Translations under genes and position numbers: made by a program
Notes under the pieces: model-generated
Told to the model about the DNA's origin: nothing
The model's input: only the letters and a program-made list of their open reading frames with translations
Databases searched by the model: none
NCBI GenBank assembly: GCA_007449985.2
Contig: VIIQ02000086.1
Location: 62,001-126,000, forward strand
Reading direction: 5' to 3'
Origin: Desmodesmus armatus
Taxonomy: Eukaryota > Chlorophyta > Chlorophyceae > Sphaeropleales > Scenedesmaceae
Length of the DNA: 64,000 bases
Part shown: positions 7,415-57,738 of the stretch, one piece after another
Layout: each line of letters starts with the position of its first letter
How positions within the stretch are numbered: position 1 is the first letter of the stretch

Positions 7415-10400
7415 TCATGCATGGTCCATCATTGGCACTGCAGGCACACCCCTCCAAACTGCACCAGCTGGCACAGTCTCGCCCTTCATGACGATCGACA
7501 CATCCTGCAGCATTATAGCAGCACACCATGCACCATGTCAGAACACAGCCCGCACTTGGTGAACACTACCTGCTGCCTACGGTCGCCACATTGCAGTGTG
7601 TGTGCGCTGCAGTCAGGCCCTGACACCTCCCCAAAGACGGCCAGTTTGTAAGCATCAGATGCTGTACACGTGCCAGTAGCTGCTGGCATTCAGGCTGCAA
7701 CCCTAGAGGGTGTATTCAACGGCAACCCTGCAGAGTTGCGGATGACTAATGACTAAGTAACAGTATTACCAGTCAGCATGTCAGTGGCCACCAAGGCTGC
7801 TGACAGCAGAAGGGCTTACCCCAATGACAGCACCGTCTCCAATGGCACAGCCAGGCATCACAGCAGAGCCGCACCCAATGGTCACACGGCTGCCGATGCA
7901 CACATCTGCAGGACAGACGGCAGCAAGCACACAGCAGACACGGACTTAATGGACCAGCTACCTCGAGATGTGAGCTGGACGCATCAAACTCAAGGTTGAT
8001 TGCTGTCAACACAATGTACATTCCAGCGCTGCTTAGATGCCAGCAACCCTCTGCGGACTGCACAAGCATTGGGGTTGAGCAGCAAGGTTGCAGCAGCACC
8101 TGCTGGCCTCCGCTCAACGTGCATGAGCCCTCATCATACTGTCGTCACAGATTCTGTTGAAACATTGGTCAAAGCTCTGGACAGAGCCTTGGGCTGGGAA
8201 CAGGCTGTCCTCAACCTTTTCAAATGGTTGCCAGCTTTCGGCAAGCATTACAGGCAGTTCCAACTTTGGCCAGCTGGGCGCAAGCCTGGCCCATGGAGGG
8301 AACAAACCTCAAGCTGTTGTGTCCTGCTTACCATGGAACTTGACACATCTGTTCTCTGTGGTGTGTGCCATCACAAAGGACAGGTCATCAATCACGGTGC
8401 CGTCACCAATGGTGAGGCAGTCAGGCTCGTTGCTGCACGTGCACACAGTTCACAGCAGCCAATGATGTCAGCCAACCACAATTGGGATACAGCAACCGCT
8501 GCAGCAGTATCCGCAATCAACCAGAGACACACAAAACATATACCACGAGGTTGCATCAAACGTTGACGTTATAGCTCAGCACATGGCCCACCTTGCCAGG
8601 CTGTTGAGCAGCACTCCCTTGCCAATCTTGGCGCCCATGGCCCTGTAGTACCACACTGCCAGCTGACTGCCACTGAGGTACTTGAGCAGGCTGGTCTGAT
8701 GGAAGTAGAACAGGATGCCGGTGATCATCCAGGCTGCAGCGCAACCACCACACAGCACGGCACAGCACACAGGGGGAGCGCGTCAAGCCTTGCGTGTACA
8801 CATGGGATTTTGATGGAACGTAAACGCGGCTTTGTGCATGTGGTCATGTTTGTGCTGACTAGATCTAGAAGTTTCCGATGCAGATGTTGGCCTGGAGAAG
8901 GGAACAGCTGGTGTACCCCAGCCTGCATGACCCAGTGCCTGCCCTCACCTGTATGTGTGTACTGGTAGAAGGGGTTGTTGCCTTGGCAGCGCCTCAGAAG
9001 CACCCTGCAAGATACCACCACATGCAGCGTGTCAGCCATCTGTTGCAGGCTTTCTGCCAGGCTGGAGTCAAGGCACATGCAGCTGCAGCTGTACCGCCAC
9101 TGGCACTGCACCAAAGCTTACCCTGCACCAAACTACAGCAGCTGCTGCTGTCAGAGTAGTACTATTGTCTACCATAGTTCAGCACACGGACCATCCAGCA
9201 ACATGGTGCCTGACAGGGATCATGCCCTGCTGCTTACTTCTTGACAATCATCATCCACAGGAAGTCAGTGCAGAGGTCAATGGCCCAGGACACCGGCATC
9301 AGCAGCACGCCCCACACGATGCCATACTGGAACACCAACACCGTTGTGGCAATGAAGAAGGGCAATGTGGCAAACTGAACGCTGAGCGGCAGCAGCACTG
9401 CCATGATGAGTGTGTACAAGGCGTTGAACTTGAAGTACTGCCAGCTGCTGACTTGGCGGGTGACGCCGGGCTCTGACTGCACAGGGGGGCCGCCGTCTTC
9501 GGGTTCAGGCTTGCCAGGCATCAACACCATGGGTCCCTGCATGATAGAACCAGGGACACAGCAGAAGCGTTGTGAGCTAACAGTGACATGCGCGCGCTTC
9601 TCTAAGTTGTATCTCAAGTTTGGGGCAAGTTGCAGCGGCCATGGCAGCAACAGTGCTGCACAGAGGCTTCTGCATGCCAGCAGAGGATGCCAAACCCAAG
9701 GCATGTGATGGTCAAGGTGTGAAGTGCCATGCGCAGCCGTCATGGCCAACCTGCACGATGGAGTCGCGTGGGAAGGTGCGGCCAGCCTCTGCGTAGGTGA
9801 AAACCCCCAGGCATGCCCCTGGCATGACCTTGACCCCCGGGTACAGGCAGGTCTGGTTGGTGACGTCAGAGCCTCCCTTGATAATGATCTTGGAGGAGCC
9901 CAGGGCTGTTGAAGGCATCAGGGACACCTCACTGCGTCAATCAGACACAACAAAAACGTGTTGTCATGATGCGTCGCAAACACATGACGTGGGTGAAGTC
10001 TGCATATAATTCAACCGTGACCATCAACACATGCAAGAGTACGCTGTGGCACGCTCTTGGGATGCTCCAAGTTGGGGGGAGCTTTGGCACACATTGGCAT
10101 TTTCATTCCACAGCAGTCAAGTACACTGCACCAAAAATCACACAGATGCACTTCCCAGTGACCAGCACATGCAATGTGCCGCAGCCGCTGCAAGCATACC
10201 GCAACCCCAATGCGGCCCCTCACCTGCACACGGAGACTCCATCCCCAATCTCCACAAGGTCGTGCTCAAAGAGCTGCAGGCCCTCACCAATCCAGGCCTG
10301 CTTGCCAACCTTGGTGCCCATGGCCCTCAGCCACGCATTGAACATGGCCGTGCCTGTCCACATGTACAGGCACACCTTCAGCCCAGGGTGGTCCAGCATG

Positions 10401-12350
10401 CACTGCAGCAGGTGGCTGCGGAAGCGCTCGCCCCAGGTCTTGGGGCCGGGGTTGAGGCTCAGGGCGGGGTCGGGCTTGATGCGGCCACGGATTAGCCACT
10501 TGTAGGGGATGACCAGCAGCACCAGCAGCTGACCTGTGTGGTGGCAGAGCAGGCAGAGACACAGACAGCGCAGGGATGTTCGAGGAAAGCAACAGGCAGG
10601 GCCGCAATGACTGCGAATGCACGGCTTGGTGGCAGCTACCACGCAACACACTACTGACTTAATGCAAATCACTGTGCATTTGGCGACATCACTAGGACAC
10701 AGGAAGAACGGCGCCACTACCGGGGCATGATCAGAAGCATCTTTACTGGCTTACCGACAATGAAGATGGCTGTGGGGTACAGCAGCATGGACTTGATGGC
10801 TGCCTGCATCAGGTTGTCACATTTTGCTGCAGCCTGGGCTGACAGGGCCCTGCTGGGCAGCTGGGTGAAGCACTGCAGGGTGTCACCAGCAGCGATGGGC
10901 AGCTCGCCCCAGGTGTAGCCAGAGAGGTAGTTCCAGAACAGCAGCATGCCGACTGTTGGCCATGCAACATAGAGGATCACAGGCAGCAGCAGGTTGGGGC
11001 ACACAAAGTGGTCAAATATTGGCAGTAATGGGTATGCTTGCATGATAATGGAGGGGCAGGAGCGGGGACTAACTAGCAAATTAGACAAGCTTAGCAAACC
11101 GTAGGGTGTGGCTGCAGGCCTTGGCAGATGTCAGACAGCTGGTGACACTTTCCTTATCTATCAACCACTCACCTGTGAAGGGGAAGGTAATGAAGGCCAG
11201 GACAGAGTCAGTGATCACGAGGGCCAGCAGGCCGCTCAGCACTCCCAAGGGCTTGTCCTGAGATTTGGCGGCAGTGATACCATCTGGACCACTCTGAGGC
11301 CAGCGACTGCCCTTCCAGACAGACGGAGGGTTGTTGGACGCAGTGCACGGCTGCACCACTGCGCCATCAGGGACGTCCGCGCACACGACCATTCCGTGTG
11401 CGCCGACGACCGCGCCCTTGCCGACATTGGAGCGCTTGACGATCATCTTGCCGGTGGGGAAGCGATCGGTTGGCTTGCCCGCCTCGAATGTCACTGCCGT
11501 CACGCCGGAGAACATATCGCACACAGCGTCGTCCTTCACGTCGATCAGGTCGTAGCCCAAGAAGTCATCGGTGTCGATGAGCACGTTGGCGCCCACCTTC
11601 ATACCTAGGGCACGGTAGAACCAGTTGACCAGTGTGGTGCGCTTGATCAGTGGAAGGAAGGAGGCGCGGGCACCCTGTAGCAAAGCAAGGCAAGCGGTGC
11701 AGTGCAGGTCAGGACATGCATGCATGTGCTGCTGCCGATGCACTTTGTGCAAGCAGCGGCAGATCCAAGCTGGGTGTCGCATGTATTTTGTGACTAAACA
11801 GACGTCAAGGCCAGAATCAACACCAGGCAAGCGACCCTAGTGCCATGTGCGTGTTCGTGTTAGCTGGCATTGGCGAGACATGCACAACGGCAAGAGCGAG
11901 CAGGGCTCACCCCTAGTTTCTCCCCGGCGCCCGGAGCAAACACATGTATCCAGGCCCCACCAGCTCCCCTGCACTCACCACAACAAACTGGTTGGCCAGC
12001 CAGTGCCTGATGTACTGCCATCCCCATATGGGGTACTCCCCCTCCTTGTAGCGCCCAACAAACACCCACTTGCCCGCGACGGTGATCCCCACGCCCAGCA
12101 GCAGGCTCCCAAAGCTCAGCAGCGGCAGCAGAGCCAGGGCATCATAGCCCCACACCATCAGCAGCCACATCCACCCCAGCATCGGCAGCACCGACAGGGC
12201 GTGCATAGTGCCAGAGATGAGCAGCATGCCGAGGGTCTGCACCAGTGTGCACAGCCACACAGCAGGCTTGACCTGGTCTGTAGACACCCCCTCCTCCCCT
12301 GGCAGCTCCTTCTTGAGTGACACCGGCTTCAGGCCACCCTTGCCGCCTGC
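7415..12350 (-). other. C-terminal membrane/beta-helix half of the NRPS-like protein (exon 11 to 21)
   Basis: Order seen: several hydrophobic segments at the end of exon 11; beta-helix domain 1 in exon 12 ([16 protein letters not shown] and following); hydrophobic segments in exons 12-14; beta-helix domain 2 in exons 14-15 ([23 protein letters not shown]); hydrophobic segments in exon 16; beta-helix domain 3 in exons 18-21 ([27 protein letters not shown], ending [18 protein letters not shown]). The repeated R-A-[ML]-G-x-K-[VI]-G opening of each domain shows that the three are homologous. This is the layout of the terminal domain of bacterial Pls-type proteins (TIGR02353 in my memory). Confidence 0.8.
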
Positions 12351-15300
12351 TGCTGCAGCCCCAAAGCTGAAGCTAGACAGCCCAGGCATGCTCTGGATCT
12401 GCGCATCATACACTGGTATCACACTGCTGCCTGCTGACGAGCCAAAGTACTTGCTGAACAGGCTGCTGCTCATATCACCAGTAGCGGCAGCCTTCTTGCT
12501 GCTGCCATGGTCACTGCCGGTGCTGTCAAGACCCAGGGTGGCCATCACCGTGCTGTATGCTGCAGCGGCGGCAGCATATGCTGCCTTGGAGGCTGCCGCC
12601 ATATTGGCCTCATAAGCGCCCCCGCCTGCTGCTGCGGGGTGGCCGAGTGCAAAGGCTGCTGCAGCAGCATGTGCAGCCGCGTCAGCTGTAGCAGACGCCG
12701 CGCTGTTGGGTGCAGCAAAGCTACACTGCCTGGAGGGGAGGCTGCTGCAGCCGCTGAAGCTTGATGAGCCAGACAGCGTCCTGTTGAGCCCCTGAGCCCC
12801 CGCTGCAATTCTGAAGCTGCTGGCGTTACTGCTGACGAAGCTGCCGGGTGCAATCCTGCTGCTGGTGCCGCTGCAGGTGCTGCCCCCGCAGGGCAGGGAG
12901 GGCCCTGCCTGTGCAACGGCCTCTGTGAACTCGCGCAGGGTGGTGTTCTGGTAGATGAGCATGCCGCTGAGCCCTGGAAGGTTGAGCCCCACACGCAGCC
13001 GACTGTTCATCTTGCCGCACAGCAGGCTGTTGCCACCCAGAGCAAAGAAATCAGTGTCTGCAGCAGCAGCAGCAGAGAAGGAGGGGGGAAAGGAGTACAG
13101 CGCACACATGATGACTTAGTCGGCGGGGGTAGGGGTTGCTGATGAACAAGAAGGTTGCAGTACTAGCGGCTGGCATCATACATACAGTGTCTGCCCAGTT
13201 TCCCTGCCGCCAATCGCACTCACAGTGAACCCCTTGCTTCAGCCAGCCAACCGGGACGTTCCCCATACCTTCTACATGCTTGTGTGCACGAATCATGCAG
13301 TGAAGTACAGTACAGCGCAACCCAGTAAATGCAGACAAAGCCCAAACCCCTGCACTAGCCTGCACGGCAAGGGCCCACCATTCATCCTCATCATCTCTCA
13401 TCCACCAAGCAGTTTTGCAGTTTTGCCCCCCTCCCTGCCTTGCTCACCTGCACCAAGGCTGCTGCGCTCCATGCCCAGGGTCTCCGCCCACGCTGCCGCA
13501 ATAAAGTCAGACAAGGCATCTGCCTCCATGATAGTCCCTCTCAACATGCTGCCCTTGCCGGCCTGAGGGCTGCTGTTGCTGCTGCCGCCGCTGCTGTTAC
13601 CTCCCAGCCCGTATGCGGCCGGCACCATTGCCCCTGTTGCTGCCACTGCCTCTGTGAATGCATCCATGGTAGGGTTCTGGTAGATCAGCATCCCACTCAA
13701 GGACGGCAGGTTGAGGCCAGACCTGAGCCTGCTGTTCATCTTGCCACACAGGAGGCTGTTGCCCCCGAGTGCAAAGAAATCGTCCTCAGGGGCAATCTCC
13801 TCAGCTCGGCAGCCGAGGGCCTCTGCCCAGGCCTCTGCCACATACTGCTGCAGGTCTGACAGCCCACTGCTCGAGGCTCCTGGGGTAGCAACCTCCTCCT
13901 CATCCATACTGCCCACACTGCCTGTGGTTACTGTCATGCTGCCCCAGCCTGCAGGCAGTGCTGCGCCCGCCACTGCCACAGCTTGCGCAAACTCTGCCAG
14001 GGTGGTGTTCTGGTAGATCAGCATCCCGGAGAGGCCCATGAGGTTCATTCCTGTGCGGATGCGGCTGTTCATCTTGCCGCACAGCAGGCTGTTGCCTCCC
14101 AGGGCGAAGAAGTCTGCTGAAGGCCCGATGCTGTCCACACTGACACCCAGCACTTCTGCCCACACCTCTGCAATGTACTGCATGATGGGGTCACCTCTGG
14201 GGCTGATGCTGCTGTGTGGGGAGCTCACGGGGCTACTGCTGCGGCTGCTGTGGGACAGGTCAACGCTGCTGCGGAGGCTGCTGGCGCTGCTGCTGGTGGC
14301 TGTGTCGCCCCTGGCAGGTGCTGATGCTGGTGCTGGCTTGGCGGGAGTCTTCACAGGGGGCCTGACAGCATCTTTGGAGAAGTCAGGTGGAGGCAGGGCC
14401 TTGCGGTTGACTTTCTCTGAGGGCAGCAGGGGCAGCTGGTCCATGCGCACCACCACTGTGGGGATCATGTACCTGCAGGCAACAAGAGAGGGTTGGTAGG
14501 AACGCACAAGAGCGACAGCAGACAGGACCATCAGCAGCAGTGTAGGAGGTCAGCGTTCAGCACCAACCTAACCCAAAACAGCAATAGAAGTACGTACAGA
14601 AAGCTACAGGGCTGAAGGGTGGGTGTGCAAGCAAGCGCTCAAGCAAGACCATCGATGAATATGGATATTATGCACACCCACAGCCACTGGAGTTGGTCGA
14701 GTCCAGTACAGTGCACTCACTCTGGCAGCATGCCGTGCAGCTGCTGCACCAAGTCCTGTGCATCCAGGGCTGCAGGGCTGACCCAGGCCACCAGCTGGTC
14801 CTGGTTGGTTGTGGGGTGCTTGGCCAGGGCTGTGGCCACCTGAGACACGCCAGGGAGGGATCCCAGGGCTGCCTCAATCTCCTGCAGACAAAAATGCGGG
14901 AACTTATTTTGAGTGACAGGTTGATAGAACATGCATGCTGAAGGCAGCAGGCGCATGGGAATAGCTCAATCCTTTCAGCTCGGGCACTGTTTGCACACTC
15001 TGCGCACAACAGCTGCAGTCTGCAATATGCAAGCTGGGGCGCCTTGCTGGCCGAGTGGGATTGTATGGTGACAAAAGACAAGCGCGCCTTGCTCAGACGT
15101 TTCCTGCACACCAGCACCTTGATGCACTGTGCGCCTAAGCTGTCTTGACAGCGCTGTCGCTAGTGGGCGGCTGCGTGCCTGACACGCCCACTGTTCACCA
15201 GCTGCTTACTGCACACCATTCTGGTGTTTTCTGCATGCACCAATGGCTCGTCTCCTGGGGAAAATACAGGCCGCCTTGTTGTGTCCCGCACCTGCAGCTC

Positions 15301-18300
15301 AATGCGGAAGCCCCTGAGCTTGACCTGGTGGTCCACACGCCCAGGAACTCCAGACAGGCATGGCGGCCAGGCAGCCAGCGCACCAGGTCACCTGCCCTAT
15401 ACATGCGGTCGGTGAAGGTTCCAGGGCCCTCGCAGAAGGGATTGGGGACGAAGGTCTTCTCGTTCAAATCTGGGCGGTTGAGGTAGCCCCATGTGACCTG
15501 TGGTGACAGTGTCAGCAGCAGGGGGCCGCGTTGTGAGTACAGGCCTGGCAGGATGGTCTGCAGCATGCTTTGCGTCAACAGTTTTAGCCCATGACTGATG
15601 CACCAGCTGCTATCCCCTTGATACATGCTTTCACCTCTAGAGACACCACCAAAAGGCTTGATGTCTTTCAGCCAATCCTCATCCCGTTGCCTTTGCTATA
15701 AAACCCTGACTGACGTTCAGCAGCGACAAAGAGCTGACTTGGGTCTTGGCTTTGTGCGGAGCCTGCCCTGCTGCAAGAGCCATCAAGCAAAATACCCCCT
15801 GCTGCAGGAACCAGCAGCTGGCTATCCACAACCCACCTGTACGCCGCTGATGTACAGCTCGCCCGGCACTCCAACAGGTACAGGCTTCAGGTCTCCATCC
15901 ACCACATACAGCCGTGAGTTGTAGATGCCACTGCCAATGGGGATTGTTGCGGCGACTGAGGTGCCCTCATCAGTGGCTGGTGGCTCGTACAGCCAGGCAG
16001 TGATGCCTGCAGCAACCAGCAACAGCACAGTACCAGAGTGACACGTGGTCACACGTCAGCAAAAAAGCTTGGGCTGCTGACATCAGCAGTGACAGCCAAT
16101 GCATACGGTGGACTGGTGGTGGTCACTCCCTTGGGTGCGTGTATGTGTGCACTGCAAGCAACGTTCAGAAGTGCTGCCGACACCCTACAATTGCATGCAG
16201 CAGCTTGTCTCGGGCTAGATGGGCGTGTCAATCGACTCAGGTGAGTGCCCATGCACGTACGACTGTTTGCAGTCTAGCGCCACTCCTCTGGCAGCTGAAG
16301 ACGTACTGCCGCAAGCACACTCCCAGTGACCACCGGTAAACCCAACACTCACCGACAGTGGTCTCTGTTGGGCCGTAGGTGTTGAACAGCTTGCAGCGAG
16401 GCATAGCTGCCGTGATGTCCTGTGCCATGGTTGTAGTGAGGGCCTCTCCGCCAGACAGCACTCGCTTCAGGGTGCTGCAGGGTGCCTTGCCAGCTGCTGC
16501 TGCCTCAGGGCCGTGCAGGGACAGCACCTCACGCGCCAGGGCCTGCAGCTGGCTGGGTACCGCTGAGGAGGTGGTCACAGAGTGCCTGAGGTAGCAGCAG
16601 CAGCAGCAGCGGCAGGGAGTGGGAGCACATGGTCAGGGTGTCAAGGCTGGGAGAGCAGTGGATGGTGTGTACACCCTCAACCCATGGTGGTTGAGCGTGA
16701 ATAAGCCTGTTGCCTGGGGGTGTTTGGCATGCAACTTGGTGTGTAAATGTGAGCGCGTGAGATTCTGATACAGCCAAACCACCTCACTTGCCGCAATCAG
16801 GCAAGTACATGCACACAAGACACCCACCCCTCTGTGCCGCGCACAACCTGCTATTGCCCCCACGCCAGGCCCCCATGCCTCCCTCACCTGGCGATCAGCA
16901 TCATCACGCTGTGCACATCCCTGTGGGCCTCTGGTGGCGCCACCACCAGTGGCGCACCCACTGTCAAGCTGGTCCACAGCTCGTCAATGGAGGCGTCAAA
17001 GTTGGTGGGAGTCTTCTGCATAAACACATCCCCAGCTGTGATGCCAAAGAAAGTCCTGAACCAGGACACATATGCTGTGAGGCCCTGGTGCATCACCACC
17101 ACGCCCTTGGGCTTGCCGGTGCTGCCACTGGTGTAGATGATGTAGCAGGTGGTGCCGTCATCCCCCAGTTGACCGTGCTGCCACTGTGGGCTAGATGCTG
17201 CTGCTGCGCCAAAGCTGGCAGCTGGCAGGGCGGCTGGCACCAGGGGCGGGAAGGCAGCTCCAAGTGCTGGCCGGGGTGCTGGCCGGAGTGGCCACCTTGT
17301 GTGGTGTAGGGCACCTCTGGATGCAGCAGGAGTGTGTGAATGGCCAGGCTGGCGAGGGTGGCTGCAGCCGGCAGCTTCACCACCAGGTTTGGCTGCACTA
17401 CCACTGCCTGTACAAGCAGTAGGGGCAAGGAGCAGGTAGGGAAGTGAAGAGAGGAGCAGCAGCAGGGAACGGTAAGTAAGAGCCAAGTTGCACAAGCCTG
17501 CTGCTTGCCAGCAGAAAGCATTATTCTGCCTTGAGTCCTGAGTCTGCCGGTATGTACCTGGCAAGCACTGGCATGTACACACAGTCTCTAACTGCTGTGG
17601 AGCAAAATCTCTGCACAACAGGCAACCCAGGGACCAGCGTGCGTACGCAGGCTATCGACTGTTACTGTCACATGGTCCAAGACGTCCCTGAGCACCCAGT
17701 GAGTATGACACGGTTGCGAACATGGGTACGTCCATGCAGCAGCAGTGAGGTATCCTACCTTGACAGCAGCATCCTCCAGCATGAAGGCAATCCTGCCCTC
17801 TGGGTGGTGGTGGTCCAGCGGGAGGTACCCGGCACCCGCCTTGAGCACTCCCAACAGCGTGGCCACCATGAGGGGGCTGCGCAGCACCAGCACTGCCACA
17901 ATGCTGCCAGGGATCACACCAGCTTCCTCAATCAGGTAGTTGGCGATGCGGTTGGAGGCTGCATCAATCTGAGAAAAGCAGGACAAGCGAGGAAGAAAGG
18001 ACCATGCAGTCCAGCACACTGTCGGCACAGTTTCCTTTTCAAGGGCGGACATGGCAAGCTGCTGTGAAGTATTAACAGAACAGTACCTATCTAGAACAGT
18101 ACATCAACAGTCAGTTCTGCACACAAAAGCTTGGTCTTGGCTGTGAGTTTATGTTGCAGCAGAGTGTACTGGCTTAAATTGGCATCCTCACCTCAGCATA
18201 GGAGAACACATAGTCCTCGTAGATCACACAGGGGGCGTCAGGTGTCTCCCTAGCACGCTGCATGAACTGCCCATGCACGAAGGTCTGCCTGTCGTAGTCC

Positions 18301-19663
18301 AGGTCTGTGTTGTTGAAGCCCTGCAGCACCAGCTGCTGCTCAGCTGCATCCATCAGGGGAGTCTGCAGCAGGGGCTGCTGCCCAGCACCCTGCAGGGCTG
18401 ACCTCAGGTACACCTGCAGGCAGGATCAGGCGAGGTGGGGTCAAAGTGTGGTGAGGTGAGGTGAGACGGGGTGACGGCTGGCCAGCTTGGCCACAATGTG
18501 AGTATGGGCCCCATCATTGGTGCTTGAGCCATTCCCAGCGCAGTCGGCCTACGTGACGCAGTAACTGTTTGTGCAAGCGGCTAAGCATTGCATGCAATGT
18601 TGGACTAGCTCCTCGGCCAATACAGCTGACTCAGCTGCCTTGCTGACCAATGCCCCAGGGTGGTGTGTCTGCTGCTGCGACCGGCCCTGTTGATGTGGGC
18701 TTGATCATCACTGATGATCAGTGGCACTAATCAGGGCAAACCTGACCGCAATACCAGGAGCCAAGCAATGCGCTGGTAGGCTGAGAGGCGCACATCAAGC
18801 ACCTTCATGTGTGGCCTTGCACAAGGCCAATCATAGGTCAAAGCCTTGCAGCTTGCTTGCCACCCACCTGGAAATGGTGAGCCATCAGCTCAGCTCCCTC
18901 CGCTGTGAACAGGCCACTGTTGTACAGCAGCTGGACGGTGTGCTGCTGTTGCTGACCCTGCTGCTGCAGCAGCACCAGCACTAAGTCCAGGCCGGCTGCA
19001 GCCTCTGCTGCTGCAGCAGAGGAGCTGGCCACGGCCACACCAGCCTGGAACAGCGGGTGCTGCATGCTGCTGGCTGGTTGGATGCCAGCTGCTGCACAGA
19101 TCTCCTGCAGCGGCACCTGTGAGTGAGGCAACAGCAGCTGCAGCTGCTCCTGCAGCTGCTGCGCATGACTGCTCAAGCTCGTCTGTGGCCCAACAATGGG
19201 GCAGCACAAGGGCACCAATGGCTGCTGCTGCTCTGAGAGGCTTGATTGGCCCAGCAGCAGAGAGGGTTGCACGCCAAGGGTCACATCCTCCTGAGAGCTG
19301 ATGCGTGAGATGTAGGCCTGGTGACAGCACAAGGGTGACAGGGGTGTTATTGACTGAGCAAGTGTGTTGGCGTCAGTCACGAGACACGGATATGTCTGTG
19401 GATGTTGCTGTCTGCAGACTCCCAAGCTCTCATGCAGTGTGCTGGGGCCGGGCTGGGACCTGGGCCAGCCCTGCCTCATTATAAATGCACTGCGACATGA
19501 CGCCCTCTGCTGGATTACTCACATGGAATGCTGCTAACAGGGTAACAGCGGCTGGCCTGGTGTTGTCCTGCTGCCACAGTTGCTCAGGAAGGTCCAGCAC
19601 TACTTGGCGCCGTGCAGTTAGGGTAGACTCATGTGTGCGTGCCTGTGTTGGCAACAAAAACAT
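7415..19663 (-). CDS. NRPS-like protein of the Pls (poly-lysine synthetase) type: half C - A - T - T - T - alternating membrane segments and three beta-helix domains
   Basis: Twenty-one exons (- strand): 19663-19523, 19317-18868, 18413-18192, 17968-17759, 17407-16888, 16585-16353, 16006-15837, 15497-15292, 14881-14721, 14472-13448, 13057-11979, 11674-11173, 11036-10755, 10533-10224, 9931-9751, 9536-9238, 9004-8949, 8733-8592, 8432-8332, 7905-7820, 7504-7415; about 2155 residues. All phases fit if one base is added in exon 5 (about 17225-17345) and one in exon 8 (C3 run 15340-15342). Residues 1-200 match only the second half of a condensation domain. Residues ~200-800 are an adenylation domain with motifs [54 protein letters not shown] and LPEYMIP. 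Three carrier domains follow with LGGNS serines near 900, 1011 and 1124. After an Ala/Ser-rich linker come membrane segments alternating with three hexapeptide-repeat domains, as in bacterial Pls and its relatives. Product and substrate are unknown. Confidence 0.85.
11979..14472 (-). other. Three tandem carrier (thiolation) domains of the NRPS-like protein (exons 10-11)
   Basis: Each copy repeats the core [17 protein letters not shown] followed by a near-identical tail with LSGMLIYQN. The Ser of LGGNS is the phosphopantetheine attachment site. Copies 1 and 2 sit in exon 10; an intron splits copy 3 just before its TDFFALGG. The linkers between copies are Ser/Gly-rich and differ, while the cores are almost the same, suggesting internal duplication. 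Confidence 0.85.
15837..18413 (-). other. Adenylation domain core of the NRPS-like protein (exons 3-7)
   Basis: These exons carry the ATP-binding and substrate-binding core. The A3 loop [11 protein letters not shown] is intact, the A4 motif FDAS keeps the Asp that in other NRPS adenylation domains binds the substrate alpha-amino group, and A5 (NTYGPTE) and A6 (GELYISG) are canonical. A7 (YRAGDL), A8, A9 and a diverged A10 ([11 protein letters not shown], with the Lys kept) lie in exons 8-10. The preserved Asp argues for an amino-acid substrate; I do not attempt to predict which one. Confidence 0.8.
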
Positions 19664-21171
19664 TCAAATGCCAATGGTTACATCTGGGCATCTCATTCCT
19701 CACCACCACCCTATTATAAGTGTGCAGCAACAGAGTCATCTAGCATCAATACTGGCTGTAGTCGCGCTCATCCTCAAGGAGCGATGATTAAGCAGCAGGT
19801 GGCCCACAAGAACAACAAATGGATTTTGAAGCAAGTATGGTTTGCTAACACAGCATCTGCGGCTCATTTGGTCGTCAACGCACTCTCCCATGGGCCAACT
19901 GCTCTATATGGGCCTGATATATTAGGCCCACCTTGTCGAGAACCAGATCCAAAGATTGACTCGCAGACTGCAGATTCTGCTTCCAAAACAGCGTGCTGCC
20001 CATCACTGCCTACACAGGCCGTCAAACGACCCACGTCTCCAGCTGGCTGACGATCAGAGCTCCAGAGCTACGCCTGACTGTCCACTCAGAAGGCTGCAGA
20101 CGTGCACGCAAAGGAAAATATCCTAAGTGTGATTGACGTTGCCAGCTAGCTAGCTGACGATCAGAGCTCCGAAGCTGTTTCACACCAGCACCATCTAGAG
20201 GCAACACGTACAGCAAGACTGTGTGTGCAGCGATTGCGACGGCAGGCACTGTTATTGGTCGCAAACACAATCTCACTGACACTGTCAAAGTTGTCTTACC
20301 AAACGAGCGAGCAACAGTGTTATCCCGTCAGTTACCGGTTCTGCTTCAACTGGGACGTACGCCAAAAACCTGGCCAACGGATGCTTGACCAGGAACAACT
20401 TGGATGACTTGCCGTTTGTTGCGATCGGCCCATTGATGTGGTCACAGCAAGCTTGCAAGTGATGCGAGTCAACTCAACCGCTGACTCACTGCTATTGTAC
20501 ACACACCATCGGCACTGAGCTAGAGATAAAATGAAATGCAAACAAAATTCTAATGCGCATGTGGTCACGACGAATGCAATATCACATATCACTCCGGTGT
20601 CTGGAGATGTGCAGCCAACCCGCAATGATACCATTTCCACACCACCTAAAACTCTACCAGAAATGATTTTTGATGTGGCGCTTTGGTGGTGTTGGTGTTG
20701 ATCCCACTTCGCGTCCGTGGACACGTTCGTTGGTGTTTGGCGCGTTTACTATTCATCAATCCTTCATCAGAGGCAGAAACGATGACACCGGCTGCCGACG
20801 CACCATGTGCGGCCAAACGTGCGACTTCTAGTCTTTGCAGTCTGCAGCACTCACTACCTACAAGGTTGTAGGTGCTGGTGGGACTTCAAGTGGTCCGAGT
20901 GGGGTGTGAGTGGGCACTCAGATCCTGGTGCTGCGAGAGAAATTGGCATCTGCAACATGATGGTCTGTGTTTGCGACCGGCTGCTGCCCCTTTCAAGAGC
21001 ACAAGATGTGCAAGCGCTCAGTCACTCCCACTGAGTGTTTGCTGGTGTGCTACCCAGTGCAGGAATGCTAGCCGAGTGGTGCTATGATATGCAACTGATT
21101 TGAACTTGGGGTTCAAGCACAAACGCCACACTGAGAACACAAACTATCATTGTGGAGGGCCAGCATTGCCC
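19664..21171. other. Hsp70 3' flank and upstream region of the NRPS-like gene
   Basis: No exon is supported. I searched the - strand for the missing first half of a condensation domain with an HHxxxDG motif and found none. An 18-bp direct repeat (20046-20063 and 20153-20170, core ctgacgatcagagctcc) lies 90-500 bp upstream of the proposed start. The right part should hold the 3' UTR of the Hsp70-type gene. Confidence 0.35.
20046..20170. repeat. Pair of 18-bp direct repeats upstream of the NRPS-like gene
   Basis: gctgacgatcagagctcc occurs at 20046-20063 and again at 20153-20170. Both copies lie in the presumed promoter side of the NRPS-like gene and could be a regulatory or a chance duplication. 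Confidence 0.6.
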
Positions 21172-24100
21172 TCACCGTGGCTCTCCCTGGCCAACACCAC
21201 TGCTGCTGCCGCCACTAGGATCGCCACCATCTGTTGTTTCCACATCGTCACCCGCTTCAGACTCATCCTCATCATCCAGCATATCAAACTTCTGCTCCAC
21301 CTGTGATCGTGTTTCTGGGTTGGTTTTGAGCTGCAGCTGTGCCAGGGCCCGCATGAGGCTCGCCTGCCACTGGTCCATAACCATTAGGCTGTCAACATCA
21401 CCCTGCAGGATACCAGCCTGCAGCACACAGAACATCACATCATTGAGTGAAAGATGCAACGGCTTGCATGCTGCCTTGTTGTCATGCTCGTAGCCGCTGT
21501 GAAAGCCCGCAGAGAGCGTCATCGTGAACCACACTCAGCGCTAGCCACGTTCTGCCTCAGGCACATGGCATGCTTGCACCTGACTGTCCCGAAACCACAA
21601 AAGGGAGAACCTTCTGTCAACCTGGAGCATGTGGCCAGCTGCAAGCACACAACCCCCTCTCAGCATACACCCCAGCAAATAGCGCCGTGCCAAGCATGTG
21701 CTGTGTCAACCCACCTGCACAGCCGCCCCCAGTGCCACAGCCTCATCTGGGTCCACCGCATCATTGTCCTCAGGAGTGAGGCCTGTCATGTTGCTCAGGA
21801 AGCGCTTCACAGCAGGCATGCGTGTTGACCCTCCCACCAGCAGCACCTTGCTCACAGCAGCACGAGCCTTGGGCCGTATTTCCAACTTCAACTGCGCAGG
21901 GCATCACACCGCAAGGGTCGTCAGTGAGTGTACACCCTTGCACCCACTGGAGCAAAGCAATTCAAATCTGCCAGTGCATGCACCCGACGTTTGAAACACC
22001 AGCAGTCTTGTTTCTGCAGGCACAAACATGCTGATGTGCTGGTGCTGACAAGCATGCCGTCAGGGTTGCAGTACTCTCACCAGTTCTCGCTTCCATTTCG
22101 GTACTCCTCTTTTGGCCAGCTCTTCCCGCTTCGCCTGGAACGTCATTTGCAGCTCGTTTAGGTCCACACCTGGCAACACAGTACATATGCCTCAGTGTGC
22201 CTTCAAGGTACATGACCTGTCTGGTTGCGCAAGATTGGCACTGCTCAGTAAGCCCTAGTAGGGCTTAGTAAGCTGACCCCACATGCGCGTTGCTGCAGAA
22301 GTTGAGTTCCAGTGCGGCTGTACATGCGCGTGGTTGGATGTGCAGATGCAGATGCACACTCATGACTGCAGATGCACAACTTGTTGGCAGCGCAGTGCAC
22401 CTGATGACAAGCAAGCTCCTTGCTAGCCCAGGGTCTGTCTTCTGTCTACACACCTGCGGTCCAGCAGGCCTGATCCAGTGGTAGCCGTGCTTGTTGAAAC
22501 AGCTCTGTAGACACTTCATCAAACTGAGCCTGGTCCAGGGTCACCTGCAGGGGCCACCTCCAGGGCCACCCACTGGCATCCTACAGCAGCAGTGACAAGC
22601 CCACAATGTGCAGTCATTCACGTTGACGGTGCAGCCCCAAGATGTGCAAGGAGGGGCTAGAGGTTTTTACACACTGTGCTGCCAACCACGCCAGGCCCCT
22701 GACACCACGGCGGATACATTGTGTCGCACCAGGCTGCTGCACAGCCAGCCCGCTTCCAGCTGCATCACTGTTGCATGTTAAGCCCTGCACATGCGCCTGT
22801 CGGGACACCCAAGAGTCTGCATCACAATTCTTTCCTGCTGCTTGTTGTGTCCTGCACACAGGCCTCACCTCAGCACCACCTGTTCGTTCTCTGACAATGA
22901 TACTTTGGCATACTCAGCGAGCCCCTTGAGCCGCGCTGCCATGGCTGGACTGCTGGTGTCAATGCCTGCGGGCTGCAGGTAATTGCGCTGGAGCCACTGC
23001 ACGATGGCTGCGTCCCAGTCATCCCCGCCTAGGTGCGCATCCCCGCCTGCAGGAGAAACACAGACACAACCAACGGCGGTGTGGTGAGCAAGCTTGTAAA
23101 ATCTGGCAACTGGTTGCTGTAGGCTTGAGAGCAGCCTAGCACGGCGGACTGCGCCACATACTCGCCTCACGATGATGGTATGGCATACTGCGGCAGCAAG
23201 AACACACTGACATACTGTGGCTGCTGCCGTGGCCCAATGATCAGCGCAGCGCCTTTTGATGTCAGTCATGCCGTGCGCTGCTGTTGTCTGTACCAGCATT
23301 GCCACCCTGCTGCTGACCTGTGCTGAGCACCTCAATGGTGCCGTTGCCGACCTCCAGCAGGCTCACATCCAGTGTGCCGCCACCCAGGTCAAACACCAGC
23401 ACCACCTGCGCACCAGCAAACCACATGCCATGTTACCTGATGACACGCGAGCATAGAACCACTCCACAGAGTGTACGCTACTAGCTGCAGCAGACACTTG
23501 CAAAGCTGGCGCAAGCACGTTGTGACCGCACCTGGGGCAACAGGTCGTGCGTGACTTGTGGTTTGGCCCTGTTGCCCAGCCACAATGCCTGGTGTGCAGT
23601 GTTCTGGGTCACTGCTCAACACCTGCCGAGCTTTTCACCACCCCTGCGGTCGCGGCTGGCTCTTACCTGCTCTTCCTCCAAATCCAAGCCATACGCCAGT
23701 GCTGCAGCAACTGGCTCACGTATTAGCCGCACTGTGTCCAACCCAGCTAGCTTGCCTGCAGTCAGGTAGTGAAAAATGAGCACTTGAAATCAGCACCACA
23801 CAGGCACACAAGGCCGCTGCTTGGCGCTGCCAGGCGGCTGTTGCTCAACAACACGTTCAACACGTCAGGCTAGACACACCAGCAAGCCGTGCTTGCAACT
23901 GCCACAAGCCCGATGTTGTGCTGCTCTCTGCTAGGCATGTGCACCAGCAGATAAGCAGCTGCTGTTCATGACGACAATACAGTCATGCAGCTGGGCTGGG
24001 CCATACTATGGCCATACTATGGCCGTATTATGATAGGTCCGGTCGTAGGCCAGTGGACGGGGCTGGGTGGGTGCAACCCTATTTGGGTGACAGTGCTTGT

Positions 24101-24905
24101 GGCGAGTCAGCGCACCTGCTGCTATTGTCGCATCCCGCTGCTCATCATCAAAGTATGCTGGCACAGTTATGACGGCCTTAGTGATCTCAGGGACGTTGGT
24201 GTGCTGTGCTGCATCTTCCAGCAGCTGCTGCACTATGAGTGCTGACACCTCCTCAGGGTAGAGGTAGCCTGGGTCCACGTGTGGGCATGCAAGCACGGTG
24301 TTGCCATCTGAATCCTGGTCTACCTGAGAAGCCAGTGAGCACCGCAAACATTAAGGAGGGGATGAGGAGCTGGCCATGCTTGCAGCTGCTGTGTAGTTGA
24401 TGATGGGACAAATGATGATCCTTTCAGGGGTGCAACTCACAGTGTAAGCCAGACGCTTGGCCTCCTCCTGCACGGCAGGGTCTGACCAGCTGCGCCCGAT
24501 GAGCCTTTTGACCGAGTAGTACGTTGTGCTGGGGTTTCTGCCCTGCGCTTGCTTGGCTGCACGCCCTACAGTGGTGACGCCGTCTGGTTGGAAGGACACT
24601 ATGCTAGGAGTGAGGGTGTCACCCAGAGAGTTGGGGATGCAGACTGGCTGCCCATCCACTATGTAGGCCACCGCTGAGTTGGTGGTTCCCAGGTCTATGC
24701 CAACCACCACTTCTCGATTTGCTGATGGTGACGCGCCCGATGCAGCTGCTGCTGCCCCCACTGCTGCCGCTGATGTAGGAGCCTGCACTGCTCTCCTTTT
24801 GTTGACGACGGGCTGTGAGAAAGGCTGTTGGAAGCCATTGCAGCGTTTGCAACCGATGTGTTGCTGGGCTGGAGTTTTGTGTGGTGTCCCCAGGTAGTGA
24901 CGCAT
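21172..24905 (-). CDS. Hsp70-type protein with ATPase domain but no substrate-binding domain, probably plastid-targeted
   Basis: Nine exons (- strand): 24905-24441, 24323-24116, 23755-23667, 23405-23318, 23046-22869, 22557-22454, 22169-22081, 21891-21715, 21417-21172; 547 residues in one consistent frame. The ATPase domain is clear: [13 protein letters not shown] near residue 69, [51 protein letters not shown] and [14 protein letters not shown]. Exon 8 ends with [13 protein letters not shown] at about residue 466, the normal end of the nucleotide-binding domain. The remaining ~80 residues are not a peptide-binding domain; they start [18 protein letters not shown] and end in an acidic Ser/Gly-rich tail. 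The first ~67 residues are basic and Ala/Ser-rich without acidic residues, like a chloroplast transit peptide. I chose the ATG at 24905. The acceptor of exon 6 (22557) was chosen because the alternative creates a stop. Confidence 0.85.
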
Positions 24906-25553
24906 CACTGCTGAGGGGTGACGGGTAGGGACTGAATCAGGGTGGGTGCTCCAAGCGCGGCTGAGCCAGGTGTACGTTTGTCTCCAACACAGAGTTGCTT
25001 CCTAAGCAAGTCAAGAGTCGGCGGGGCTTATTGGGGAACTGTTACCTTGGAGTGGTTTATGGGGGCAAGGGTTTGGTGTTCGCGGAAGAACGTGAAAGCA
25101 GTCCACAGCTCAAATCATGTTGTTTCATGTTCCCAAAGTCAACGGCGATTAGCAACAGACAAAAACTTGTGTTCAAGTGCAGCCTTCAATTTGGTGCAGC
25201 TTCGACCATCCTTCCAAAAGAGCAGCACAGGCACCGACTGAATCAGGTAGGCCGCATGCAGCTGTTTGGGTGTGCTCTGGGGCCCGGCTGCTTCGCAGTG
25301 CGGTCTCGGGATGTTGCACATGTTCACGGCGCCGTAACCCTGCACGGCTAATGCTTCTTTCTTTTATGTCATTGCATGTCGATCAGGCATGCTCCGTCTG
25401 AGTCCTTGTGGTCGCCCCATGCAGAATACAAATTTTGGATGATTCGTCACGCCTTGCCTGAAAACGTGCTTTGCTCGTGCTTTGCAGGTTTGATCTTTTC
25501 TTCCTTCTTTGTCTTCAGTGGTGACCAGCCACCAGTCCCAGCCGTGCAAGAGC
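24906..25553. promoter_or_regulatory. Divergent promoter region between Hsp70-type gene and kinase gene
   Basis: About 650 bp separate the two start codons, which point away from each other. No exon is supported, although the kinase might have a short upstream exon ending before 25516. I see no convincing heat-shock element; the best candidate, TTCgcgGAAgaacgtGAA near 25079, has irregular spacing. Confidence 0.5.
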
Positions 25554-57458: not shown

Positions 57459-57738
57459 GCGCACTCAACACACAGGGATGATGGATTCAAAGTCTACACG
57501 CACCCCACCAAGTTGCGCACTCAACACACAGGGATGATGGATTCAAAGTCTACACGCACCCCACCAAGTTGCGCACTCAACACACAGGGATGATGGGTTC
57601 AAAGTCTACACGCACCCCACCAAGTTGCGCACTCAACACACAGGGATGATGGGTTCAAAGTCTACACGCACCCCACCAAGTTGCGCACTCAACACACACA
57701 AGGTGGATTCAGCACACACGCAGCCGCAATCCCTGAGG
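57459..57738. repeat. 56-bp tandem repeat, about 4-5 copies
   Basis: Copies of gcgcactcaacacaca start at 57459, 57515, 57571, 57627 and 57683, an exact 56-bp period. The first four copies are nearly identical; the last is partial and degenerates after about 35 bases. Confidence 0.92.

Follow-up and report, generated by a model that had tools for sequence, protein, structure and literature searches.

Sequence analysis of a duplicated Pls-like gene family in the green alga Desmodesmus armatus

We analyzed a window of 64,000 nucleotides from Desmodesmus armatus (assembly GCA_007449985.2, contig VIIQ02000086.1, positions 62,001 to 126,000 of the forward strand). Coordinates below are those of the window unless another contig is named. 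Its minus strand carries, from 19663 to 7416, a gene that we call C82. Judged by sequence, C82 and three paralogues are a real, duplicated algal gene family, related to the Pls/PosA synthetases yet outside them. Pls (polylysine synthetase) and its kin are bacterial enzymes that link a single basic amino acid into short polymers. A sequence-only reading of the window had proposed a Pls-like architecture for this gene: an adenylation domain, carriers, and membrane segments alternating with three homologous hexapeptide domains. Pfam, TIGR02353, hydropathy and blastp all agree with that architecture.

Domain organization of the C82 protein

The predicted protein has the order C'-A-T-T-T followed by three repeats of a membrane pair plus a helix-type domain (C1, C2 and C3), with a long linker between the third carrier and the first membrane segment (TM1). 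Here C' is a truncated condensation (C) domain, A is the adenylation domain and T is a carrier domain. The earlier domain list, which named the A domain and carriers, is corrected in two points: the carriers number three, and it missed the truncated condensation domain.

The A domain spans residues 249-792 (exons 3-10, 14412-18260, minus strand, as are all features of the gene; PF00501, PF13193, TIGR01733). AMP-binding covers residues 249-655 with an E value of 6e-78 and AMP-binding_C also matches (Pfam). The amino-acid adenylation model TIGR01733 gives 2e-117 (NCBIfam). PP-binding (PF00550) matches three stretches (E 5e-32, Pfam). T1 lies at residues 870-937 (13977-14180) and has its serine in LGGNS. 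T2 (residues ~981-1048, 13644-13847) and T3 (residues ~1094-1161, 12915-13508, split by the intron 13447-13058) were placed by motif positions, while the coordinates of the A domain and T1 come from arithmetic on the exon model. Pairwise identity among the three is 62-68% where they align. We follow the Pfam count because one of four regular-expression motifs is linker sequence. By motif count, no other relative with an A motif has three carriers.

The truncated condensation domain occupies exons 1, 2 and part of 3 (18333-19663). It aligns to positions 254-453 of the 456 of PF00668, under the cut-off: E 3e-4 in the whole protein, and E 3e-7 with 29.8 bits (cut-off 30.6) for residues 1-238 alone. 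The half that bears HHxxxDG is absent from the gene model, and the domain is not intact. We looked for an intact one upstream and rejected the candidates: four minus-strand open reading frames (ORFs) at 19864-20885 show no Pfam family at E ≤ 1, and an HSP70 gene lies beyond. A search of the same genome for condensation domains gave no match at E ≤ 1e-3, a weak negative, since this search also missed the partial domain of C82. The N-terminal 240 residues had no phmmer match to the first 260 residues of 18 long relatives. A long N terminus is not unique to C82: in 14 of 265 other sequences with an A motif, the A domain is preceded by more than 120 residues. Among the N-terminal pieces of five relatives, PF00668 matches P0086 and P0174, matches P0088 weakly, and is not found in P0164 and P0233. 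For the enzyme that activates carriers (PF01648), the genome has one match over the cut-off, carrying two in-frame stops.

The C-terminal half matches TIGR02353, the model of the Pls/PosA terminal domain, in three stretches (E 1e-63 for the whole protein, 3e-65 for the tail). The sequence-only reading had staked itself on such a profile match, and the match is there. The hydropathy peaks of this half amount to six membrane segments in three pairs, grouped by eye, the last two nearly touching; three further peaks in the C' and A regions were left out of the six. TM1-TM2 (residues ~1376-1447, 12057-12272; hydropathy, alignment) stand at the start of the conserved stretch. Exon 12 (11173-11674) holds the helix-type domain C1 and TM3, placed by TIGR02353, similarity to C3 and hydropathy. 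TM4, C2 and TM5-TM6 follow in exons 13-16 (9238-10952; hydropathy, alignment), where much of the classical motif of C2 is replaced. C3 lies in exons 18-21 (7416-8733) with hexapeptide repeats and the residues H2059, E2062, R2064, K2067, K2105 and E2107, assigned by PF00132 and conservation. Hexapep (PF00132) in the tail scores 27.1 bits against a cut-off of 27. In two-sequence blastp comparisons the three domains are homologous, with E values of 1e-10 (C1/C3), 1e-7 (C2/C3) and 1e-4 (C1/C2).

The linker between T3 and TM1 has about 210 residues. Such a length would suit two neighbouring transcripts, one for the A half and one for the membrane half. We consider this very improbable, because the end of T3, the linker and TM1-TM2 all lie within one exon (13057-11979). 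Moreover, the other three loci have A-domain pieces upstream of terminal-domain pieces, and the relative P0056 holds A, T and terminal module in one protein of 1483 amino acids (aa).

A family of four genes

The search of the D. armatus genome with TIGR02353 gave 12 exon-level matches, none over the cut-off, at four loci: C82, C96 and two on contig C632 (C632a and C632b). The C96 gene (~84.1-93.8 kb of its contig) has no frame break and a single carrier motif, and part of it is homologous to the truncated C domain. Over 1860 aligned residues it agrees with C82 at 967 (52% identity). Of the 20 intron positions of C82, 14 are common to both genes in equal phase, so most introns are older than the duplication. 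The earlier claim of many and old introns is thus supported.

The two genes of C632 lie at ~179-191 kb and 262-273 kb of the contig, about 70 kb apart and in opposite orientation, with one carrier motif each. Identity between the two is 68%, and that of C632b with P0056 is 40% over the full length. With the C82 protein as template, the alignments of C632a and C632b begin at residues 211 and 237 and include no truncated C domain. The C96 template yields doubtful small exons in this region of C632a.

Phylogeny and relation to Pls/PosA

Homology of the C82 tail to the Pls terminal domain is clear. The Pls identity proposed by the sequence-only reading holds only to that extent. The score is 215.7 bits for the whole protein and 221 bits for the tail, below the curated cut-off of 423.1, and two classical members reach 806 and 649 bits. 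C82, P0056, C632a, the protein of Chrysophaeum, P0159 and P0174 score 179-257 bits, all under 423.

In a maximum-likelihood tree of the terminal half (32 rows), the four algal proteins and P0056 form one clade (100/100). This clade falls on the side of the agarics, the pelagophyte and P0174, and a split with 100/100 support sets that side off from 21 classical rows. In the A-domain tree (35 rows) the same five group with support of 94/87. Here a clade of 15 rows, made of the five, Chrysophaeum, P0174 and eight plasmid A domains of non-ribosomal peptide synthetases (NRPSs), stands against 20 Pls rows (100/100). By phylogeny, then, the A domain of C82 is not of the Pls type. Since both trees separate C82 from the classical rows, its two halves have a history unlike that of classical Pls. 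On these trees the C82 family is a separate, little-studied branch outside classical Pls/PosA.

The terminal-half alignments used 221 of 288 sequences in one tree, with the tail cut by motif, and 38 of 43 chosen rows in another. The Chrysophaeum tail was cut inside C1 by the motif, and its first part is missing from the terminal-half trees and from the column counts below. Three agaric rows were taken out of the A-domain tree for their very long branch (6.8 in an earlier tree). The eight plasmid A domains are the top plasmid matches of the C82 A domain. Six are in genes annotated as NRPS; those from Embleya and Burkholderia have no annotated gene at the match.

Conservation of the terminal module

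We counted 58 columns conserved at ≥95% in 211 classical tails. A set of 26 of these is common to the four algal proteins and P0056. At the 90% threshold, C82 retains 51 of 82 columns. These counts vary with the alignment, as W1740 shows, which is matched in one and unmatched in another.

The residues kept concentrate in C3. All four algal proteins and P0056 have His2059, Glu2062, Arg2064, Lys2067 and Lys2105, and the eight other divergent rows all share His2059 as well. At the place of Glu2107, P0056 has Asp. In C2, N1835 and the glycines 1779, 1783 and 1852 are kept. None of the five proteins has the E, the A, the G or either F of the classical motif of this domain (E, F, A, D, F, G at 1787-1834), and one has the D. 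Because the C3 residues are largely kept and much of the C2 motif is lost, this pattern suggests that C3 may be the site of a shared chemistry and that C2 may differ in handling the acceptor or the chain. The algal sequences indicate in this way which residues of this little-understood module are kept (mainly C3) and which are changeable (much of C2).

Amino acids of the binding pocket

The pocket codes were extracted by alignment to anchors of GrsA, with reference positions that we take to be the standard ones. C82 and C96 have DADSLGTVGK, C632a and C632b DSTELGSVTK, and P0056 DPLELGTVQK. We counted codes in 154 aligned sequences with the motif, of 173, C82 included. The commonest patterns are DMEHNGTVT and DMEHNGSVS (19 each), followed by DAESIGTVI, DAESIGTVV and DAESVGTVV (17 each). 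Ala occupies position 2 in 57 of the 154, C82 again included, and DAESIGTVx is the commonest pattern with Ala.

As in lysine-type synthetases, C82 has Asp at position 1 and Ala at position 2. In C632a, C632b and P0056 the acidic residue is at position 4 instead. Neither DADSLGTVGK with its variants nor DAESIGSVCK, presumably a lysine code, occurs in the literature searched. One study shows that PosA requires its Asp at position 1 and its Glu at position 3; it also reports Ala at position 2 in lysine-activating enzymes and Glu at position 4 in an ornithine-activating domain of another NRPS (PMC10522769). The algal codes therefore fit a basic amino acid, apart from the Asp that replaces Glu in C82 and C96, and DADSLGTVGK otherwise resembles the lysine-type DAESIGTVxK. 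The earlier proposal of an amino-acid substrate is consistent with this pocket.

Proposed activity

A membrane-bound iterative oligomerization of a basic amino acid is the best-supported reading of C82, ahead of a single transfer, and we give it about an even chance. On this reading C82, a nuclear gene with three paralogues in the genome, encodes an NRPS of a single module that is anchored in a membrane. Its A domain would adenylate a basic (lysine-like) amino acid, and the activated residue could be loaded on any of the three carriers. The C-terminal membrane module would then, without a complete condensation domain, pass the aminoacyl group to an amino group, either on a further molecule of that amino acid or on a growing oligomer. 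With repeated transfer the product would be a short cationic (iso)peptide, formed at a membrane or across it. The truncated C domain may only support the A domain, and three carriers may raise throughput.

Several observations weigh against this reading. Position 3 of the code is Glu in 151 of the 154 sequences and Asp in C82 and C96. Among the eight nearest plasmid A domains fetched, six carry DVWHISL(V/I)DK, which we take to be a serine code; overall similarity of the A domain therefore does not decide the substrate. In the terminal module, 15 of the 58 conserved columns are found in none of the four algal proteins or P0056. Eight of them fall at 1747-1858 (C2), three in C3 (T2011, L2060 and D2063) and four elsewhere. 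The genome search is also unspecific, as matches below the cut-off of TIGR02353 appear in 13 of 14 control genomes; the four loci thus rest on the spliced models and on the A-domain pieces at the same places. Finally, the agaric relative P0159, of the same wider clade, pairs such a module with an A domain of coenzyme A (CoA)-ligase type. The terminal module, therefore, need not polymerize amino acids.

P0159 fits as well with a possible, less favoured alternative: an aminoacyltransferase that moves one residue to a lipid, a polysaccharide, a polyamine or another acceptor, and does not polymerize. The C82 tail matches hexapeptide acyltransferase models weakly (all under cut-offs), as well as gamma-carbonic-anhydrase and acetyltransferase structures (best E 2e-6). 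Moreover, all five proteins depart from the classical residue at five columns of C2, and at four of these columns they share one and the same substitute. Nevertheless, the classical His, Arg and Lys are kept in C3, and a basic-type pocket is the mark of polymer makers. These two features argue for oligomerization over a single transfer.

More tentatively, we propose that green algae have an old, duplicated Pls-like family in which an ordinary NRPS A-T unit was joined to a divergent Pls-type module. It might make unreported cationic (iso)peptide oligomers without a working condensation domain, and its two subfamilies might have different pocket solutions for basic amino acids. We regard this wider proposal as doubtful. 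If the enzyme works, amino-acid polymerization free of condensation domains would extend to algae, and the cationic polymers could have antimicrobial or cell-wall roles.

Comparison with known systems

C82 resembles Pls/PosA in the order A-T followed by six membrane segments with three related helix-type domains, in the basic pocket, and in the conserved His of C3 and its neighbours. It differs in the NRPS-type A domain, the Asp at code position 3, the three T domains, the truncated C domain and the loss of part of the C2 motif. This comparison was made through family members, the named Pls/PosA enzymes themselves being outside the alignments.

Epls of Epichloe festucae is likewise a eukaryotic enzyme with the order A-T-TM-C1-C2-C3. 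It is reported as a working fungal epsilon-polylysine synthetase, 51% identical to Pls of S. albulus (PMC7179176). On that figure Epls is near the classical family. In contrast, the C82 tail is 21-27% identical to family members aligning over at least 87% of the tail, with Epls itself outside the trees.

Among the best 120 of 214 matches, P0056 (from sequence-archive contigs) is the closest relative outside the genome, 34% identical over the terminal half and in the same clade. Unlike C82, it has no PF00668 match, a single T domain and its own code. The pelagophyte alga Chrysophaeum taylorii has CTAYLR_006155 (P0164), with A-T and a terminal module, in the same wider clade. It is ~28% identical to C82, its N-terminal extension before the A domain has no PF00668 match, and its code is unlike that of C82 by alignment. 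The N-terminal part of C82 resembles the L-aminoadipate reductase Lys2: the Lys2 profile (TIGR03443) aligns with residues 19-762, so the truncated C plus A of C82 is like that of Lys2. C82 has no reductase domain, and scores 285 bits against a cut-off of 1030.

The fungal relatives P0134, P0156, P0159, P0162 and P0165, from agarics and related fungi, apparently combine a terminal module of Pls type with an A domain of CoA-ligase type. P0159 was the one tested for the CoA-ligase match, and P0134, P0159 and P0162 have an unusual code in common.

One study reports homologues in fungi, Amoebozoa, Metazoa and Alveolata, and its main text contains no word beginning with "alga" (PMC10522769). Among the titles listed by our literature searches, none is on a Pls-like enzyme in algae. 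Two surveys report NRPSs to be rare in algae, and both required a condensation domain for a gene to count as one (PMC4661987, PMC7073580). A gene like C82 would not be counted as an NRPS for this reason. Nevertheless, it could fall in the separate class Other(A) that one of them has (PMC7073580).

Gene model and frame breaks

The manual model of C82, checked by script, has 21 exons and 20 introns (159-454 nt, GT-AG in 20 of 20). Exons 1-7 are at 19663-19523, 19317-18868, 18413-18192, 17968-17759, 17407-16888, 16585-16353 and 16006-15837. Exons 8-14 are at 15497-15292, 14881-14721, 14472-13448, 13057-11979, 11674-11173, 10952-10755 and 10533-10224. Finally, exons 15-21 are at 9931-9751, 9536-9238, 9004-8949, 8733-8592, 8432-8332, 7905-7820 and 7504-7416. 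The length of 2155 residues given earlier becomes ~2127 here, with frame breaks in exons 8 and 5. When these two breaks are read as X, the 2127 codons contain no in-frame stop.

The first ATG is at 19663, with an in-frame TGA directly before it. Just inside this start is an acceptor-like CAG, which makes an additional upstream exon possible. Within 1.4 kb downstream of the gene there is no TGTAA poly(A) signal.

We made spliced models with a purpose-written program. Taking C96 as template, both ends were recovered for 16 of the 21 exons, plus the inner ends of exons 1 and 21. This check is only partly independent, since C96 was itself modelled on C82. The alignment departs from the manual model at exons 5, 10 and 11; exons 10 and 11 differ because C96 has one carrier. 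In exon 5 the frame break is either a one-base shift or an extra GT-AG intron of 62 nt (17295-17234, minus strand), and the C96-templated alignment prefers the intron.

Exon 8 (15292-15497) has a one-base frameshift near 15341, in the region of motif A8, seen in the script check and in the alignment with C96. We found no intron solution, and C96 is in frame at the same place and needs none. C82 could then be a decaying or non-functional copy, with a real frameshift and with C96 as the working gene. We hold this improbable. It must be set against a run of ~2127 codons that no stop interrupts and against 20 introns with clean GT-AG ends. In addition, C632a and C632b have a single break each, and all three templates put it at about the same position. 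Residual assembly indels explain this better than three independent decays would. The break is probably an assembly error or damage, a residual assembly indel being the simplest explanation.

A DNA search of the genome with 3.3 kb of C82 returned itself at 100% and nine short pieces at 75-82%. Therefore, no second allele was seen.

Genomic context and origin

We scanned 10 ORFs of neighbouring regions in the window with Pfam. Six were over the cut-off (HSP70, a protein kinase, a gamma-tubulin complex component, an AAA protein, a glycosyltransferase of family 1 and a fatty acid desaturase), one had a sucrose-synthase match below it, and three had none. The family is mainly bacterial, which would suit a bacterial contaminant of the assembly. 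We exclude contamination in practice, given the 20 introns of spliceosomal type and these neighbours.

The proposed bacterial origin of the gene is another matter. It may hold for the A domain, which is near bacterial NRPS A domains. It fares worse for the terminal module. P0174, on a contig of 4812 bases labelled as a Rhodospirillales metagenome-assembled genome (MAG), is the only bacterial-labelled member of the divergent clade among the matches listed (best 120 of 369). Two scans of bacterial and archaeal genome contigs and one of viral contigs found no close relative of the terminal clade; these used short-peptide patterns and are a weak negative. One genome-contig scan gave a single weak piece (27%) in a Prevotella MAG. 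Plasmid DNA searched with the C82 terminal region had no match. The searches for relatives covered up to ~8000 candidates. P0174 is sister to the pelagophyte protein; its contig may be eukaryotic and mis-binned, or may truly come from a bacterial relative.

The HSP70 gene (21172-25001, minus strand) lies upstream of C82 in the same orientation. Pfam confirmed its first exon, and the remainder was modelled by eye. The gap between its apparent end and the start of C82 is about 1.5 kb. In the gap before C82 (20040-20170, minus strand) there are two copies of the segment GGAGCTCTGATCGTCAGC, ~107 bases apart. Rfam at gathering thresholds gave nothing in the window. Far from the gene, at 57459-57698, we observed a tandem array of a 56-base unit in 4.3 copies with 99% match.

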